Origin: Actinomycetota bacterium
GTDB lineage: Bacteria > Actinomycetota > Actinomycetes > Nanopelagicales > Nanopelagicaceae
Length of the DNA: 39,177 nt
Direction: 5' to 3'
NCBI GenBank assembly: GCA_026393035.1
Contig: JAPLAY010000066.1
Span: 1 to 39,177 of the forward strand
Part shown: positions 4,084 through 17,422 of the stretch, piece by piece
Layout: each line of letters opens with the position of its first letter
How positions within the stretch are numbered: position 1 is the stretch's first letter
Translations under genes and position numbers: made by a program
Notes under the pieces: generated by a model
Database searches by the model: none
Seen by the model: only the letters and a program-made list of their open reading frames with translations
What the model was told of the DNA's origin: nothing

Positions 4084-4794
4084 TTATCTGACTATTGGTG
4101 AGTTAGCGATACTTAGATCCACTTCGCTTATTTTCTTATTCTCTGGAAGTGCCAATAAACCCACTAATACTTTGCTTTTAACCGCAATATCAGTTGCGCT
4201 ATTTCCAGCTCCCCAATTTACGGAAAGTGATTTCTTGCCATGACTCATTTGCATCCCAATTTCGCGATCGGTAGATATTTCAAGCCCTAGTAACGAGCCA
4301 ACTAATTCTGGTGGGAGGTGGGACACGAAACTAGCGATTGTTCGGCGCTCACTCTTCGAGCTTTGACCTAAAGAAATCTCAGCCAAGTTACTAAATTTCT
4401 GTGGACTAGAAAATTCCACACCATCGCTTGTTAAGTATTTAGGGTCGTTACTCGCCAAACTCTCTTTAAATACCGCAACCGGAACGCGCTCGGTTATTTG
4501 AATCTTTACCTCTCCACTCCACCAATTTCTTGAGACATTTGCACCTGCGATCCATTCCAGATCTTCGATCAAATTCGATTCGGTTCGTGGATTAATTCGA
4601 GCAAGTGGCTCACCAACTCTTATTTTGGACTCCCCTGCTACTAACTGCGAAGTTATTAGCGAACTCTGTTCTGTTCCAGTTATGGAAATGGAATCAACTG
4701 CAAGGATTTTCGACCACCCAAGGCCATACGCAAGTGCCGAGGTTAATGCGATTAACGAAAATACTAAAATTAATCGTCTAACCTTAATTGGCAA
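4084..4794 (-). CDS. ftsQ: Cell division protein FtsQ (DivIB)
   Basis: About 236 residues: a short basic cytoplasmic tail, one transmembrane helix (LILVFSLIALTSALAYGLGW), then the POTRA domain (VDSISITGTEQS ... IRVGEPLARIN) and the FtsQ domain (ITERVPVAVF, LTSDGVEF). FtsQ links FtsL/FtsB to other divisome parts at the septum. Neither in-frame start is ATG. TTG at 4794 has a GAGGA Shine-Dalgarno about 6 bases upstream and is preferred; TTG at 4806 (4 residues longer) has none. Both overlap the 3' end of murC (by 11 or 23 bases), so translation is coupled. Weak sequence conservation is normal for the family; order and topology make the call. Confidence 0.88.
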   Translation of the reverse strand: MPIKVRRLILVFSLIALTSALAYGLGWSKILAVDSISITGTEQSSLITSQLVAGESKIRVGEPLARINPRTESNLIEDLEWIAGANVSRNWWSGEVKIQITERVPVAVFKESLASNDPKYLTSDGVEFSSPQKFSNLAEISLGQSSKSERRTIASFVSHLPPELVGSLLGLEISTDREIGMQMSHGKKSLSVNWGAGNSATDIAVKSKVLVGLLALPENKKISEVDLSIANSPIVR

Positions 4795-6172
4795 TTTGTT
4801 CCTCAAGTGTTTGAAGAATTAGCGGTACCAATAAATTCACATCACCAGCGCCAAGCGTGATAATCACATCACCCGACTTCGCGATTTTTGCTGCTTCAGT
4901 TACAACTTCAATCATCGATGGTTCAAATTTCACTTTTGAACTGGCCATCGCATTAGCAATCTGAATTGATGAGACACCTGGAATTGGTTCCTCACTGGCT
5001 GCATATACTTCAAGTAAGAAAATCTGATCGGCAATATCCAAAACTTCGGCAAACTCAGAAACAAACATGGCAGTACGTGAATAACGATGAGGTTGGAAAA
5101 TCACTATGACTCGACCATTCCCAGCAAAACGTTTCGCGGTTTCAAGAGTCACTCGTACTTCAGTTGGGTGATGGCCATAATCATCAATAACAGCTATTCC
5201 ATTGACACTGCCCTTATTTTCGAAGCGACGTTTAGCACCACTGAAACTGCTTAGGCCCGCAAGAAGTTCGCCAACTGGGGCACCCAGTTTTAAACCAGCA
5301 GCTAACGCAGCAGTCGCATTTTCTACGTTATGGCCGCCTGGAATTGATAATGACAGTTCGCCTAAAACTTTCCCAAGCTTGGTGATTCGAGCATGCGCAG
5401 CGTTTGGTTGTAATGAGATGTGCGATATTGAGAAGTCTGCACTCTCGCCATAAGAAATAATTTCAATGTCGCTGCGGGAAATCTTTGCTAATAGCGCCAC
5501 AACTCCTGGACTATCAATCCCAGCAATTAGAAATCCACCTGTTTGAATCGAATTAACGAAGTCCACAAAGATTTTATAGACGGAATCTAGGTCTGGAAAG
5601 TGATCTACGTGATCTAACTCGATATTCGTGATTATGGCTCCGAAAGGTTTATACGCAAGGAATGAGCCATCTGATTCATCTGCTTCTGCTATAAAAATTT
5701 CGCCAGTACCGAGATGGGCATTTGTTCCACCGCGGTTAATCATTCCGCCAATTGCAAATGATGGATCTAATCCAGCTTGCTGAAGCGCAACTGTAAGCAT
5801 GGATGTTGTAGTGGTCTTGCCATGAGTTCCGGCTACAGCAATAGATTTTGATTCTGACATCAACATTGCAAGCGCTTGCGCGCGAGTGAGAATCTCTAAG
5901 CCGTTAGTGACTGCTGCCAAAACTTCGGGATTATTCTTATCAATCGCGCTAGATACGACCAAGATGTCACTCGCTCCAATATTGGTTGCGTTGTGACCGA
6001 CAAAAACTGTGGCACCTAGCGTTTGTAAACCATTTAGTACCGAAGATTCTTTGGCATCTGAACCTGAAACGCTAATTCCGCGTGCCAACATAATGCGGGC
6101 GATTCCGCTCATTCCAGCGCCACCAAGTCCAATGAAATGAACTTTCTTATCGGCTAATTCGGCTAATTTCAT
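4784..6172 (-). CDS. murC: UDP-N-acetylmuramate--L-alanine ligase
   Basis: 462 residues, full length. The N-terminal UDP-binding loop is IGLGGAGMSGIARIML, the P-loop GTHGKTTT is at 115-122, and the family motifs EADESDGSF, DDYGHHPTEV and FQPHRYSRT are all present. It adds the first residue, L-Ala, to UDP-MurNAc in the cytoplasm using ATP. The ATG overlaps the murG stop as ATGA (6172-6169). The murG-murC-ftsQ-ftsZ order is that of mycobacteria and relatives. Its intact P-loop is a useful contrast with murE in this window. Confidence 0.98.
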   Translation of the reverse strand: MKLAELADKKVHFIGLGGAGMSGIARIMLARGISVSGSDAKESSVLNGLQTLGATVFVGHNATNIGASDILVVSSAIDKNNPEVLAAVTNGLEILTRAQALAMLMSESKSIAVAGTHGKTTTTSMLTVALQQAGLDPSFAIGGMINRGGTNAHLGTGEIFIAEADESDGSFLAYKPFGAIITNIELDHVDHFPDLDSVYKIFVDFVNSIQTGGFLIAGIDSPGVVALLAKISRSDIEIISYGESADFSISHISLQPNAAHARITKLGKVLGELSLSIPGGHNVENATAALAAGLKLGAPVGELLAGLSSFSGAKRRFENKGSVNGIAVIDDYGHHPTEVRVTLETAKRFAGNGRVIVIFQPHRYSRTAMFVSEFAEVLDIADQIFLLEVYAASEEPIPGVSSIQIANAMASSKVKFEPSMIEVVTEAAKIAKSGDVIITLGAGDVNLLVPLILQTLEEQIAN

Positions 6173-7266: not shown

Positions 7267-8450
7267 TATTCGCCCCCTCGTTTTGCCTTACGAGCAGCGA
7301 TGAATTGTGGCTCTCGGCTAGCGACGTTTAGAACGAATGAAAGTGCCAGGCAGTTTGCTACTAGCGAAGAGCCGCCATAAGAAATAAATGGAAGAGTTAC
7401 GCCAACTACCGGAACGATTCCAACATCGGTCATTAAGTTAACCAAGACCTGCAGAATCATCCAGCAGCCAATTCCGGTAACTACATATTTTTGAAATAAA
7501 TCTTTGGTGTTTATTGCAATTCGAAAAATTCCAAATATTAAAAGTCCGAAGAGGAAGATGACCGTCATAGTTCCTAGTAAACCTAGCTCTTCACCTATTA
7601 CTGAGAAAATAAAATCGGTATGTGCTTCAGCAAGGTTTGCCCACTTCTGCTTGCTAGCTCCGATACCAACTCCAAATAATCCACCACTCGCCAAACTCAT
7701 GAGACTGTGCGCTGGTTGCCAACCTGCCAACTTATAAATCTCTGGTGCGAACGGATCGATAACGGCTTTGAAACGCTTTAATCTAGCTGGTTCAGTGATT
7801 GCCAAAGCAAGTCCACCAAGAAGAAATAGCGATGAAATCCCAGATAAAACCTTTAAATCCGTGCCAGCGATAAATAACATTCCAAAAACTATTCCAGCCA
7901 CTATTACTGCAGTACCTAAATCGCGCCCCTTCAGAATTAAAATCAAAAACGATACGGTGCCTATTGCAACGATTCCAACAGCGCTTGATGAAACGCCTCT
8001 CTCTTTTCGATCCAAATGTTTACGTAACATCAATGCGCAGTAAAGAATTAAGGCAAGCTTTGCAAATTCACTTGGCTGGAGAGTAAATGGCCCAATGGGA
8101 ATCCAGTTTCGGTTTCCATTTACTGTGCTACCTAGAAAAATAGGCAAGGTAAGAGCAATTACGCCGATAGGTAGCGCAAATTTAGCCAGGCTCTCCCAAT
8201 GTGAGAGATGCATCCGCATTGTTATATAAGAAATACCAATACCTATGACAAGAAAGAGTATTTGCTTCAAAAAGATGGAATAAGTATTTCCAGACTCTGA
8301 CAGCGATGTAACTGACGATGCCGATAAAACCATTACCAAGCCGAGTCCAGCCAGGGCGCCTGTACTCCCAATAATCATTAAGTAGGAAGCAGTTGGTTTT
8401 GATAAAAAATTGGCGTAGGCCTGACCCTGTTCGCGCATCCGCTTCTTCAT
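7266..8450 (-). CDS. ftsW: Peptidoglycan glycosyltransferase FtsW (SEDS family)
   Basis: 394 residues with about ten hydrophobic segments. SEDS signatures are GSTVNGNRNWIPIGPFTLQPSEFAK (read here as short pieces: NGNRNWI and QPSEFAKLA), the FSVIGEELGLLG loop that carries the conserved Glu, and LPFISYGGSSL near the C-terminus. FtsW polymerises lipid II at the septum together with the class B PBP FtsI, which is encoded in the same operon. ATG at 8450 overlaps the murD stop as ATGA. Assigned as FtsW rather than RodA because of its position between murG and murD. Confidence 0.96.
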   Translation of the reverse strand: MKKRMREQGQAYANFLSKPTASYLMIIGSTGALAGLGLVMVLSASSVTSLSESGNTYSIFLKQILFLVIGIGISYITMRMHLSHWESLAKFALPIGVIALTLPIFLGSTVNGNRNWIPIGPFTLQPSEFAKLALILYCALMLRKHLDRKERGVSSSAVGIVAIGTVSFLILILKGRDLGTAVIVAGIVFGMLFIAGTDLKVLSGISSLFLLGGLALAITEPARLKRFKAVIDPFAPEIYKLAGWQPAHSLMSLASGGLFGVGIGASKQKWANLAEAHTDFIFSVIGEELGLLGTMTVIFLFGLLIFGIFRIAINTKDLFQKYVVTGIGCWMILQVLVNLMTDVGIVPVVGVTLPFISYGGSSLVANCLALSFVLNVASREPQFIAARKAKRGGE

Positions 8451-9820
8451 TTTGCAGCCAATCTAGAAACCGAATCGATGAAGAGTTCGCCGCGTTGGGC
8501 ATATGATGAAAATTGATCCATCGAAGCGCACGCAGGTGCCAGAAGAACTGTGTCCCCAGCAACTGCAATATTTTTTGCACACGTGACAACCTCATCCATT
8601 AAATCTGCTGGATTCTCATTGTTCGCAATTTTATGGACAGGTACATCCGGAAGTACTTTCGCTATTGCTTTTGCAATTAGATCAGCATCCGTTCCGATCA
8701 ATATTGCGGCCTTGATTCGTGAGCTAGTCCGAACTACTAATTCATCCATCTTTGCGCCCTTTGCCAATCCCCCAGCTATCCAAATATTTGAAAGATGTGA
8801 AAGCAGCGAAGCGCTAGCAGCATGCGGATTAGTTGCCTTGGAATCATTTACCCAATCGATCCCATCTTTAGAAAGAACTGTCTGCAATCTATGTTTATCT
8901 AATTTGAAGCTGGCAAGTCCCGCTTTCACAATCGGGTGCGGAATACCAATAGCTAGCGCCAAACCTGCGGCTGCCATTGCGTTAGAAACATTATGAGGAA
9001 CTGCTGGCTTGATATCACTTAGCTCAGCAAATACTTCAGCAGCTTCCGGTGAAGTTACAAATGCTCTGTCAATCAATAGCTCTTCGACTAAACCAATCTC
9101 ACCGAACTGCGGAGTATCAAAGCCAAAGAAAACTTTGCGCCCAGTCCAACCTGCGCTCCGAAGAATTACCTCTGGGTCATTCAAATTAAGTACAGCCATT
9201 TTGCTTTGATTCAATAATTTCATCTTCGCATTGGCATATTCTGCAAAACTTCCATGCCAGTCAATGTGATCTTCCGCAAGATTTAGGATGGCAACAACTT
9301 CATAGATTGGAAGCGTGCTCCATTCAATTTGAAAAGATGAAAGCTCTATTGCAAGAGTTTCATAGCTATTTCCACTTGTTACTGCCTCAACAACTGTGGT
9401 TCCAACATTGCCACAAGCAATTGCCTTGGCTCCTGCTGCAACCAAAATAGATTCAAGCATTTGGACTGTTGTGGTTTTACCATTTGTGCCAGTAAGTGCT
9501 ACCCACTTCTGATCTGGGCTTAGTTCCATCTTCAATTGCCAGGCGAAGTCGATTTCACTTATTAATTCGATTCCCTTAGCGCGCATACTCTCGATTATTG
9601 AATGGTCTTTGCGCCAACCTGGTGAAACGATAGCCAAGTCAAAATTAATATTTTCTGGAACGTTGCTTACAATTTCGAGACCATCCAGCGTTGCAGCTTT
9701 CTCATCAATAATCTGAAAGTCTGCGCCAATATTCTCTAAATATCTCGCAACTGATTTTCCAGTCGTGCCGGCTCCAACAATTAAAATATTCTTACTTTGA
9801 AGTTCGGCGATGTAAGACAT
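8447..9820 (-). CDS. murD: UDP-N-acetylmuramoyl-L-alanine--D-glutamate ligase
   Basis: 457 residues. The N-terminal ILIVGAGTTGKSVARYL loop, intact P-loop GTNGKTTT (about 111-118), NLAEDHIDWHG, and C-terminal LLAPACASMDQFSSYAQRG identify MurD, which adds D-Glu to UDP-MurNAc-L-Ala. I chose the ATG at 9820 because it overlaps the mraY stop by one base (TAATG), the coupling used elsewhere in this operon, and gives the usual N-terminus MSYIAELQSKNILIVGAG. An ATG at 9838 would add six residues and overlap mraY by 19 bases. Confidence 0.96.
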   Translation of the reverse strand: MSYIAELQSKNILIVGAGTTGKSVARYLENIGADFQIIDEKAATLDGLEIVSNVPENINFDLAIVSPGWRKDHSIIESMRAKGIELISEIDFAWQLKMELSPDQKWVALTGTNGKTTTVQMLESILVAAGAKAIACGNVGTTVVEAVTSGNSYETLAIELSSFQIEWSTLPIYEVVAILNLAEDHIDWHGSFAEYANAKMKLLNQSKMAVLNLNDPEVILRSAGWTGRKVFFGFDTPQFGEIGLVEELLIDRAFVTSPEAAEVFAELSDIKPAVPHNVSNAMAAAGLALAIGIPHPIVKAGLASFKLDKHRLQTVLSKDGIDWVNDSKATNPHAASASLLSHLSNIWIAGGLAKGAKMDELVVRTSSRIKAAILIGTDADLIAKAIAKVLPDVPVHKIANNENPADLMDEVVTCAKNIAVAGDTVLLAPACASMDQFSSYAQRGELFIDSVSRLAAK

Positions 9821-10881
9821 TATTGGGAGACAACCCATTGACCATAGAAGAGTCCTAGCCCTGCAGCCACGCTCATGCCCGCCAAGATCCAGAATCGAAT
9901 AACAATTGTTACTTCGCCCCAGCCCATCAATTCAAAGTGATGTTGTAACGGCGCCATCTTGAAAACGCGTTTTCCACCAGATAATTTGAAATAACCTGTT
10001 TGAATAATTACGGACAAGGTGATTAAAACGAAGAGCCCGCCTAGCGCAGCTAGTAAGCCTTGCACGCGAAGAACTATTGCAATTCCAGATATTGCTCCGC
10101 CAAGTGCAAGTGAACCAACATCCCCCATAAATATTCGCGCTGGTGAAGCGTTCCACCATAAGAAGCCAGCGCATGCACCCGCAAGTGCTGCAGAAAGAAC
10201 AGCGATATCGAGTGGATCTCGAACGTTGTAACACTGTGCCACATCAGAAATCGCGCAACTCTGTCCGAACTCCCAAACTCCAATAACAATAAAGGAGAGG
10301 AAAGTCATTATTGCGGCGCCTGATGCCAACCCATCTAACCCATCAGTGAGATTTACGCCGTTGGAACTTCCGAGAACCAAGAAAATTATCCAAATGATAA
10401 CAAGTGCCATTCCAAGTTTGAGCGAGGTATCGCGGACAACAGAGAAATAATTTGAAATTGGCGCCAGGCCTGACTCATCTTTGAAATGTAATCCAGCAAA
10501 GGCAAAACCAGTAGCGACGACAGCTTGGCCAAATAATTTCTGTTTAGAATTTAAACCAAGTGATTGCTTCTTCGAAATCTTTAACCAATCATCCAAAAAT
10601 CCAACTAGACCTAATCCGCACATCAATCCAATAACCAGAAGTGCTGAAGTTGTTATGCCGATTCCAGTAATTGCATGACTTGAAAAATAAGCGACAACGC
10701 TTGCAAGTATTAGGACTATGCCTCCCATGGTTGGAGTGCCGCGCTTTACGTGGTGAGTTTGTGGACCATCATCACGAATCATTTGGCCAATACCGTTACG
10801 GGAAAGGATGCGAATTAATGAAGGCGTGAAGATAAAACTTAGAAGCAGCGAAATAGCGCCAGAGAATACAATCCCCTTCAT
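9820..10881 (-). CDS. mraY: Phospho-N-acetylmuramoyl-pentapeptide transferase
   Basis: 353 residues, polytopic membrane protein. It carries the MraY catalytic motifs: GFLDDWLKISKKQSLGL with the DD pair, NLTDGLDGLASG, and the C-terminal APLQHHFELMGW with the HHxE motif. It makes lipid I from UDP-MurNAc-pentapeptide and undecaprenyl phosphate at the inner membrane face. The ATG at 10881 overlaps the murF stop as ATGA. Complete. Confidence 0.97.
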   Translation of the reverse strand: MKGIVFSGAISLLLSFIFTPSLIRILSRNGIGQMIRDDGPQTHHVKRGTPTMGGIVLILASVVAYFSSHAITGIGITTSALLVIGLMCGLGLVGFLDDWLKISKKQSLGLNSKQKLFGQAVVATGFAFAGLHFKDESGLAPISNYFSVVRDTSLKLGMALVIIWIIFLVLGSSNGVNLTDGLDGLASGAAIMTFLSFIVIGVWEFGQSCAISDVAQCYNVRDPLDIAVLSAALAGACAGFLWWNASPARIFMGDVGSLALGGAISGIAIVLRVQGLLAALGGLFVLITLSVIIQTGYFKLSGGKRVFKMAPLQHHFELMGWGEVTIVIRFWILAGMSVAAGLGLFYGQWVVSQ

Positions 10882-12266
10882 TCACTCTCTCCTTTCAACT
10901 TTTCAGCAATTGCATCCGCGAGCAAATTAAATTCACCAGCGCGAGAAGCTTTGACCAAAACCACATCTCCAGGTGCCAGATGTTCAACAAGCGAGAGAGC
11001 GCTCTCTTTATTTTCGAAGTAATGCACTGCGCTTTCGCCTCCAACGTCACCATCTGCTAAATCATCAAGAAATTCCCGATTGCCAATAGCAACCAGATGA
11101 TCTATCCCGATCTCAGTGGCGAGTCTGCCAATTGCAGCATGCTCGGAGGCTGATGACTCGCCGAGTTCCTGCATCTTGCCGAGAAATGCCCAACTGACTC
11201 CCCCAGTTTCCTGCGAGATTAGTGCAAGGGTTCTAAGTGCAGCAGACATACTCTCGGGATTAGCATTGTAAGAATCATTTATTAAGACAATCTCGCCCAC
11301 TGTAGAAATTTCCATACGCCACTTACTAGAAACTTCAGCGGTTGAGAGCGCTGCTGAAATGGAATCAATCGGAATATCTAGCGCAGTTGCGACTGCAGCG
11401 GTTGCCAATGCATTTGAAATCTGATGTAAGCCAAGTAATTGCAGACTTACTGAAGCGCGGCCCTTTGGAGTAACCAGATCGAAATGGGCGCGACCTTCAC
11501 GCACTTCAATGTCTGCGGCGCGAATTTCACAATTATTTTTCTCGCCAAAAAATATTGTTTTCACACCTGAGGGAACAACCATCTTCGGAGTGAATTCATC
11601 ATAAGTTCCGAGAATCGCGATTCCGCCTGAAGCTATTCCGGTAATTAATTCTGACTTAGTTTTTGCAATGATTTCTCGGCTTCCGAATTCTCCAACATGA
11701 GCCTTACCAACTCCGAGGACTACTCCGATATTTGGCTGTGCAATCTGGGCCAAGTGCGCAATATCGCCAAGATGTCGGGCTCCCATTTCCACTATGCAGT
11801 ACTTAGTTTTTTCAGTGCATTGCAGAATTAATAGCGGAACTCCTAGTTCATTATTAAGTGATTCCTGCGGTGCTACAGTCTCGCCGGCAACGCTTAAAAC
11901 ATGTCGAAGCAAATCTTTCGTTGTTGTTTTACCTTGCGAACCAGTAATCCCAATAACTATTAATGAAGGTAACTTGGTGCGAACATAGGTAGCCAGCTTT
12001 GTAAGAGCTACTTGTACATCATCCACTTTTATAGCTGGGTACTTGCAATCTTTGCTGACTAGTGCGAACTGTGCGCCACGCGTCATCGCATCCTCGATGA
12101 AATCATGGCCATCTACATTTTCGCCGACGAATGCCGCGAAGAATGTTTCTGCGTTAGCTAATTTTGAGTTAATAACTGGATATGCCGCTGTCGCTATTGA
12201 GCCATCCGCATTTAGAATTTTTCCGCTAGTTATCTCGGCAATCTCTGCAAAGGTAAGTGAAATCAT
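10878..12266 (-). CDS. murF: UDP-MurNAc-tripeptide--D-alanyl-D-alanine ligase
   Basis: 462 residues. Signatures are NSKLANAETFFAAFVGE (UDP-sugar domain), the intact P-loop GSQGKTTT at 109-116, ESLNNELGVPLLIL, VEMGARHLGDIAHLA, and INDSYNANPESMSAAL. It joins D-Ala-D-Ala to the stem peptide, completing the UDP-MurNAc-pentapeptide used by MraY next door. The ATG overlaps the murE stop as ATGA. Full length. Confidence 0.97.
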   Translation of the reverse strand: MISLTFAEIAEITSGKILNADGSIATAAYPVINSKLANAETFFAAFVGENVDGHDFIEDAMTRGAQFALVSKDCKYPAIKVDDVQVALTKLATYVRTKLPSLIVIGITGSQGKTTTKDLLRHVLSVAGETVAPQESLNNELGVPLLILQCTEKTKYCIVEMGARHLGDIAHLAQIAQPNIGVVLGVGKAHVGEFGSREIIAKTKSELITGIASGGIAILGTYDEFTPKMVVPSGVKTIFFGEKNNCEIRAADIEVREGRAHFDLVTPKGRASVSLQLLGLHQISNALATAAVATALDIPIDSISAALSTAEVSSKWRMEISTVGEIVLINDSYNANPESMSAALRTLALISQETGGVSWAFLGKMQELGESSASEHAAIGRLATEIGIDHLVAIGNREFLDDLADGDVGGESAVHYFENKESALSLVEHLAPGDVVLVKASRAGEFNLLADAIAEKLKGESE

Positions 12267-13702
12267 GAGAGTTCCTCGATTGCTCTTGCAAGTTCAATTC
12301 GATCATCAAATGGGAATTTCTTGCCCGCTATTTCTTGTCCAGTTTCGTGACCTTTACCCATTACAACTACGCAATCACCAGGCAGCGCACTAGCAACCGC
12401 AAGTGCAATCGCTTCTCGACGATTTTCAATAACTGCGGTGCTTTCATTTAACTCCAAGCCCGCAACCATCTCGTCTAAAATCTTTGTAGGTAGTTCACTG
12501 CGCGGATTATCGCTAGTGAATATCGCTAGATCAGTTCCAGCTAATAACTCGCTTCCCATTATGGGGCGCTTGGCTTTGTCGCGATCTCCACCGCAGCCAA
12601 GTACGCCAATGATTCGACCGGAACAACTCTTTCGTAGCGTTTCCAAAGTTCTAGTAACCGCATCTGGCGTATGTGCATAGTCAACAAGAGCTAGAAACTT
12701 CTGCCCGAGATCAACGCTTTCAAGTCGACCAGCTGCGCCCACTAGATGGCTCAAACTGTTTGCGATTACAAGTGGATCAATTTCAAACTCGAACGCAATC
12801 GCAACCGCCATCAACAAGTTATCTAAGTTGTGATCACCAATAAAGTTAACTCTGCCCTCGATAAGAACGCCACCTGTGCCGCGGATAGCAATTTCATAGC
12901 CCTTAGAAGTAGCTTCCACTCTTTCATAGTGCCATTGCGCAGATGAGTTCTCTCTGGCGAGAGTAATAACTGGGATTTGGGTAGCAGCTAAAAGTTTCTG
13001 GCCATAAACATCATCGATATTTATGAAGCCCAACTCGCTGAATTCTGGCGTGAACAACTTTGATTTTGCCGCAAAATAACTATCCATATCGCCATGAAAA
13101 TCTAAATGATCTTGCGTTAGATTAGTAAATCCGACGACCTTATATTTAGTCCCGGAAACTCGCATGGCTTCTAATGCGTGACTACTTACCTCCATTGCAA
13201 CATGCGAAATATGTCGCTCTTGCATGGTGGCCAAAAGGCTTTGTAACTCGCTAGCTTCAGGCGTTGTGTGAGTAGCATCAACTTTCTCCGGGCCAATTTC
13301 GATTCCGATAGTTCCTACGAGCCCAGTAATTTTCCCGGCATATTTCAATATCTGATTGAGGATTACGGTTGTAGTGTTTGATGGTCTTCCATAAAACCAA
13401 GAACAAATTTCACCTAATTCGCGAACTGGATTGGCAACAATTAAAACTGGGGGCTTTGAACCAATTAAATCTGCCCCGATCGAATCTGTAAGTACTGCGA
13501 CTGCGCCACGCTTTACGACATCATCGATAAAACTTGCACCGTGTGCGCTGGACCCAGGCAGAGCAACAAATAGATCTCCTGCTTCTACTGCCCGTGAATC
13601 TGAGGTAATGCCTGTGAAATCTAATTCAGAGCTCGATTCAATTCCTAAGAAACGAGATAGTTCCGCAACTGATTTCTTAAAATCAGAGACCGGCCGAATC
13701 AT
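12263..13702 (-). CDS. murE: UDP-MurNAc-L-Ala-D-Glu:meso-diaminopimelate ligase, P-loop deleted
   Basis: 479 residues with a normal N-terminal domain (TGITSDSRAVEAGDLFVALPG), central substrate motifs (THTTPEASELQ, MEVSSHAL, NLTQDHLDFHG) and C-terminal domain (GRLESVD, VDYAHTPDA, GCGGDRDKAKRP). DNPR at 398-401 is the motif associated with meso-DAP specificity. The ATP-binding P-loop is missing. After FYGRPSN (residue 109) homologues have about 13 more residues ending GxTGTxGK before TTT; here N109 is followed directly by TTTVILNQILKYAG. The frame is preserved (about 39 bases lost, junction near 13376). Without the loop the ligase should not bind ATP, yet MurE is essential, so an assembly or sequencing error is at least as likely as a true mutation. 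ATG at 13702 overlaps the ftsI stop. Confidence 0.93.
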   Translation of the reverse strand: MIRPVSDFKKSVAELSRFLGIESSSELDFTGITSDSRAVEAGDLFVALPGSSAHGASFIDDVVKRGAVAVLTDSIGADLIGSKPPVLIVANPVRELGEICSWFYGRPSNTTTVILNQILKYAGKITGLVGTIGIEIGPEKVDATHTTPEASELQSLLATMQERHISHVAMEVSSHALEAMRVSGTKYKVVGFTNLTQDHLDFHGDMDSYFAAKSKLFTPEFSELGFINIDDVYGQKLLAATQIPVITLARENSSAQWHYERVEATSKGYEIAIRGTGGVLIEGRVNFIGDHNLDNLLMAVAIAFEFEIDPLVIANSLSHLVGAAGRLESVDLGQKFLALVDYAHTPDAVTRTLETLRKSCSGRIIGVLGCGGDRDKAKRPIMGSELLAGTDLAIFTSDNPRSELPTKILDEMVAGLELNESTAVIENRREAIALAVASALPGDCVVVMGKGHETGQEIAGKKFPFDDRIELARAIEELS

Positions 13703-16990: not shown

Positions 16991-17422
16991 CTAGAAGAGT
17001 CCTGGCAACACCTCCGAAGAAACATCAGAGAATGTTTTTTCACGATCTGCTAAATAACTTTCCCAAGCAGCGTTATCCCAAATTTCAAGGCGAGTGTTTG
17101 CGCCGATAACTACGCAATCTTTTTCCAGACCCGCATATGTGCGAAGTCCACTTGGAATAGTTACGCGACCTTGTTTATCTGGAACTTCATCGTGTGCGCC
17201 AGCAAACATCACGCGCATGTAATCGCGTGCTGCCTTTTCGGTGACGGGTGCTTGGCGCAGACGATCAGTAATTGAAGAAAATTCGCCGCTAGGAAAAACA
17301 TAAAGACAACGCTCTTGGCCTTTTGTTATTACAAGTCCATTTGCTAATTCATCTCGGAAACGTGCGGGCAAAATGATTCGGCCCTTTTCATCGAGTTTGG
17401 GTTCGTGGGTACCTAGAAACAC
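16991..17422 (-). CDS. mraZ: Transcriptional regulator MraZ
   Basis: 143 residues made of two SpoVT/AbrB-like half-domains: [20 protein letters not shown] at the N-terminus and [20 protein letters not shown] at about residues 73-92, each with the DxKGR or DKQGR motif. MraZ forms a ring that binds tandem repeats in front of its own operon and represses dcw transcription. Start is GTG at 17422, with a strong purine-rich Shine-Dalgarno (GGGGAGG, about 9 bases upstream). First gene of the dcw run; a clear operator lies upstream. Confidence 0.97.

Follow-up and report, generated by a model that had tools for sequence, protein, structure and literature searches.

Does the murE gene described here encode a ligase that has dispensed with its ATP-binding loop, or is the loop missing only from the deposited sequence? 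The gene lies in the window, i.e., the whole analyzed stretch of DNA (39,177 nucleotides of one contig from an actinobacterium of the Nanopelagicaceae). In Staphylococcus aureus MurE, ATP is bound by a Walker motif extended to TGTXGKT, which leads from the central sheet into a helix and is described as a conserved feature of every Mur ligase (PMC3829189). The loop lysine of the Mycobacterium tuberculosis enzyme, Lys157, was described as its most essential active-site residue (PMC10058398), and the four Mur ligases have been described as essential (PMC6736417). In the related MurT, it is the lysine and threonine of the loop that hold phosphates and magnesium, and catalysis is lost when T60 and E108 are replaced by alanine (PMC6113224).

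A 14-codon gap at the ATP-binding site

The site in question is made up of the following features:

12263-13702, minus strand: murE as assembled, 479 amino acids (open reading frame; scores above cut-off for TIGR01085, NF001124, NF001126 and three Pfam Mur domains)
13375-13376, minus strand: junction at which alignment to relatives shows 14 codons (42 bp) to be absent, those for a strand and the TGTNGK(T) loop
13376-13384, minus strand: left flank codons PSN, residues 107-109
13361-13375, minus strand: right flank codons TTTVI, residues 110-114, where the helix after the P-loop normally begins

Over the junction, the reading frame is EICSWFYGRPSN followed directly by TTTVILNQILKYAG, so that SWFYGRPSN runs straight into TTTVILNQILKYAG; the gap site is flanked by GAAATTTGTTCTTGGTTTTATGGAAGACCATC and CTCAATCAGATATTGAAATATGCCGGG. 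Alignment with relatives places a gap of exactly 14 residues, or 42 bp, between Asn109 and Thr110, with a breakpoint that is uncertain by about one codon because a same-species copy was not at hand (a scan of IMG/VR for such a copy found none). A strand of the central sheet is absent, together with the P-loop TGTNGK(T). The first-pass annotation had described a clean, in-frame loss of the P-loop from an otherwise normal murE, and this is confirmed in the deposited sequence; its size estimate of about 39 bases, however, has to be corrected to 42 bp.

The same annotation had warned that gene callers would accept the short gene, and they would indeed do so. TIGR01085 scores 414.6 bits (cut-off 257.3), NF001124 scores 480.4 (cut-off 476) and NF001126 scores 434.4 (cut-off 373). 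The three Mur ligase domains PF01225, PF08245 and PF02875 follow each other in order, each above its cut-off, and the alignment of PF08245 begins only at profile position 9. The ATP-binding loop TGTxGKT expected of a MurE is absent from the assembled protein and found in every relative whose alignment spans the site. The order of genes, together with orthologues in relatives, places murE directly upstream of murF in a division and cell-wall cluster, for which the names fts, mraY, murG, mraW and mraZ are assumed here from gene order and general knowledge. Judged by its sequence, the gene is murE by descent, and the protein as written is not one that could be filed as a functional MurE. At the mraZ position of the cluster, a small ORF (window 16991-17422) encodes a protein 99% identical to that of distant genus members, with 89-92% identity of the DNA, and by this comparison is under unusually strong constraint.

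The site in relatives and in the own genome

Eighty loci were fetched from the genome collection. In 78 of them a murE alignment spans the gap site, and the 14-residue block is found in every one, even at 37-45% identity; at the other two (L039 and L041), a different Mur ligase is printed at this site. Alignment to MurE of close relatives, as proposed in the first-pass annotation, shows the loop intact between near-identical flanks. Two same-genus proteins, encoded on G003:C90 (82% identical) and G010:C118 (81% identical), resemble the window MurE in their mur/fts position, domain order and other checked motifs and share the flanks SWFY.SPS and VILNQILKYAG, but have 14 more residues, including AGITGTNGKT. 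The sequence at the site is, for example, SWFYGSPSNNLNIAGITGTNGKTTTTFILNQILK in G003 and SWFYQSPSSSLNIAGITGTNGKTTTSVILNQILKYAG in G010.

A pattern of the intact site was matched without mismatch in 23 of 27 genus genomes, and these 23 are all the relatives in the genus with sequence over the site. The short-form junction pattern, searched in the same 27 genomes, matched solely the genome of the window. Besides this genome, the intact pattern is missing from G019, whose murE match reaches only residue 156, from G006, whose match comprises only residues 453-478, and from G018, in which no proper murE match was found. In these three genomes, murE is missing or fragmentary at the site, and none is a second example of the gap. 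On these counts, a trait shared by the lineage was rejected. In the wider family, where presence of the block was judged by length, the 132 listed murE matches are 10-24 residues longer than the window MurE over the matched span, a difference that is never near zero. Three family genomes contain two full-length murE matches each (G251:C12 and C2, G071:C27 and C53, G274:C84 and C7), at about 52-56% identity to the query, and represent either contaminated drafts or true paralogues. In two others (G085 and G147), one of them a 20-contig, 1.3-Mb draft of 87% completeness, there is no Mur-ligase match at all, and the cluster was probably unsampled.

The loop positions G, T, G, T, N, G, K and T, i.e., eight of the 14 missing positions, are invariant in 11 aligned genus relatives. 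Across 19 cluster genes, deletions of at least three amino acids occur elsewhere only in comparison with some relatives, whereas the murE gap is seen against all 13 covering relatives. As the gap removes these invariant positions and is unique among the 19 genes, it is far beyond chance. The best solved-structure matches by both sequence and fold are the Mycobacterium MurE structures 8g6p, 2wtz and 2xja (TM about 0.93), which carry a GTSGKT loop where the window MurE is gapped. PAP11, the MurE-like subunit of plastid RNA polymerase (8w9z, 8r6s) and a MurE homologue, seems to keep the segment, as judged by the matched lengths of 396 residues in the query and 414 in the chain, and thus offers no precedent for its loss.

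The other three Mur ligases of the window were correctly reported to retain their loops:

10878-12266, minus strand: murF, P-loop GSQGKT intact
8447-9838, minus strand: murD, P-loop GTNGKT intact
4784-6172, minus strand: murC, P-loop GTHGKT intact

The draft assembly (1.26 Mb, 86 contigs, 82.7% complete) further contains two Mur_ligase_M proteins beyond MurC, MurD, MurE and MurF: a FolC-type protein on contig C73, which we take to be FolC from sequence features and general knowledge, and MurT on contig C38, with a GTNGKT loop. It had been suggested that the strain carries another murE, yet the own genome yields a single murE match, an absence that is not proof in a draft of this completeness. 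The lost piece of murE was likewise not found elsewhere in this genome by a degenerate P-loop search. A second or displaced copy was rejected, as protein, family and P-loop searches of this draft returned only the loops of MurC, MurD, MurF, FolC and MurT and scattered chance matches.

On C38, MurT and GatD adjoin (L118, 937-2058 and 239-940), and the organism therefore probably amidates peptidoglycan precursors. MurT has a Mur-type ATPase domain, as does MurE, but it is encoded by a separate gene, lacks the N-terminal Mur domain and keeps its P-loop. It could be asked whether the deletion is real and fixed, with MurE function supplied by another protein, either MurT or a further murE in the part of the genome that the draft does not cover. 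The incomplete draft, the presence of MurT with an intact loop beside GatD and the finding that, in vitro, MurE could be replaced by MurT of S. aureus (PMC3266927) speak for such a substitute. Replacement in vivo was, however, judged unlikely, since neither murT nor murE is dispensable (PMC3266927), most genus members have a single full-length murE, and a bypassed murE should decay, which the window gene has not done. Taken together, a fixed deletion with a substitute is improbable.

Constraint and predicted structure outside the gap

Three of the motifs that murE has kept are located as follows:

13058-13072, minus strand: AAKSK with the invariant lysine K213, by homology the carbamylated lysine of Mur ligases
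12500-12511, minus strand: DNPR motif, amino-acid binding, intact
12344-12358, minus strand: GKGHE motif, intact

The complete set of retained motifs is MEVSSH, QDHLDFHG, AAKSK, VDYAHTPD, GCGGDRDK, DNPR and GKGHE, and EVSSH, the carbamylated lysine, GCGGDRD, DNPR and GKGHE all lie at invariant or nearly invariant columns. Relative to the nearest relative, murE shows a pN of 0.109 and a pS of 0.69, against 0.101 and 0.72 for murD and 0.112 and 0.73 for murF. Outside the gap, murE is, as these values indicate, under normal constraint like murD and murF. Changes unique to the window murE number 13-15, compared with 6-8 in its sisters; mraY tilts in the same direction and murF in the opposite one. 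Eight of its substitutions fall at columns invariant in the other relatives, which themselves score 0-16 by the same count. With relative rates and pN/pS both unremarkable, an old pseudogene was rejected. The kept motifs and ordinary pN/pS values fit neither such a pseudogene nor a ligase long adapted to life without a P-loop.

Three of the eight window-specific substitutions (L84P, R93V and S106R; residues 84-106, window 13385-13453) are located no more than 25 residues upstream of the gap. When this clustering was tested by permutation, p was about 0.008 for an interval that was picked post hoc, and nothing was built upon it.

Structure prediction singles out the junction. The AlphaFold2 model of the short MurE, based on an alignment of 33 sequences, has a mean pLDDT of 88.7, and its sole segment below 50 consists of residues 107-110, i.e., the junction. 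The model of an intact relative (L005) has a mean pLDDT of 92.6, no segment below 50 and values of about 95 through the loop, with the strand predicted to span residues 112-117 and the helix that follows the loop to begin at residue 122. As AlphaFold is no test of stability, this comparison serves as supporting evidence only. A Foldseek search with the short model ranks mycobacterial MurE first.

A working MurE that manages without a P-loop, the "most unusual ligase" envisaged in the first-pass annotation, would account for a gene that is in frame, conserved elsewhere and changed at three otherwise invariant positions near the gap. The loop is nevertheless present in every comparable relative, and the deletion takes away a strand of the central sheet together with the lysine and threonine that bind phosphate. 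In the related MurT, the exchange of the loop threonine and E108 for alanine abolishes activity (PMC6113224). Relatives sharing the trait or signs of adaptation would be expected; beyond the weak cluster of substitutions, no other part of the protein seems adapted to the loss. Such an enzyme is extremely improbable.

Origin of the gap and its implications

How could the gap have arisen? In relatives, the sequence matches over no more than 2 bp at a 42-bp offset, and no suitable repeat was found around the gap site in the window. Slippage between direct repeats was consequently rejected. A generally bad contig was rejected as well, as no other such deletion occurs in 19 neighboring genes.

The gap is best explained, at a probability of roughly three in four, as a sequencing or assembly artefact or as the reading of a rare defective template. 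A deletion would have been introduced during library preparation, amplification, sequencing or assembly and then fixed in the consensus; alternatively, a rare defective template would have supplied the short form. Candidate routes to such an artefact are a chimeric molecule, a deletion during amplification and an error in assembly or gap closing. The gap is unique among relatives, the gene is present as a single copy and its remainder is intact. The draft is fragmented (86 contigs, 82.7% complete), and the break in the predicted model coincides exactly with the junction, where the model of the intact relative stays near 95. An artefact also needs no biology and touches one place only. Against it stand a gap length exactly divisible by three (expected by chance in 1 of 3 cases), the clean, repeat-free junction and the otherwise clean contig, none of which is a strong objection, as well as the substitutions just upstream of the gap, a mild, post hoc argument. 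The exact multiple of three, clean junction and clean contig leave the artefact short of certainty. The first-pass suspicion of a wrong assembly is thus upheld as the favored reading of a sequence error, for which sequence comparison alone does not provide proof.

A clean, repeat-free junction in a contig with no other such fault would also suit a deletion that is real and recent, present in only part of the sampled population and taken as the consensus. Dying or defective cells would carry it as a dead allele, or other cells would carry it beside an intact copy. The missing decay elsewhere in murE would be expected for so young a lesion. A cell without MurE should not grow, however, and its allele should not reach consensus depth, and the second copy that might rescue it is not seen in the draft; this scenario is unlikely.

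Under the favored reading of an artefact, the living organism would most likely carry an ordinary murE with a TGTNGKT loop, which would bind ATP, allowing UDP-MurNAc-dipeptide to be activated and the third stem residue to be added. Since MurE is essential and ATP-dependent, the cell itself should possess the loop; a single-copy, essential MurE without an ATP site should not support growth.

If the gap is an error, it calls for caution, as a gene that has lost its catalytic core in frame still passes the thresholds of curated families, and annotation and pathway reconstruction would consequently count a broken gene as complete. It is highly improbable that a lineage of walled actinobacteria has truly fixed a MurE without a P-loop, be it for loop-free catalysis or as a non-catalytic partner while, for example, MurT adds the third residue. 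If true, this would break the rule that Mur ligases rely on a GxxGK(T/S) loop, and it would suggest that an essential and much-studied antibiotic target can be bypassed.
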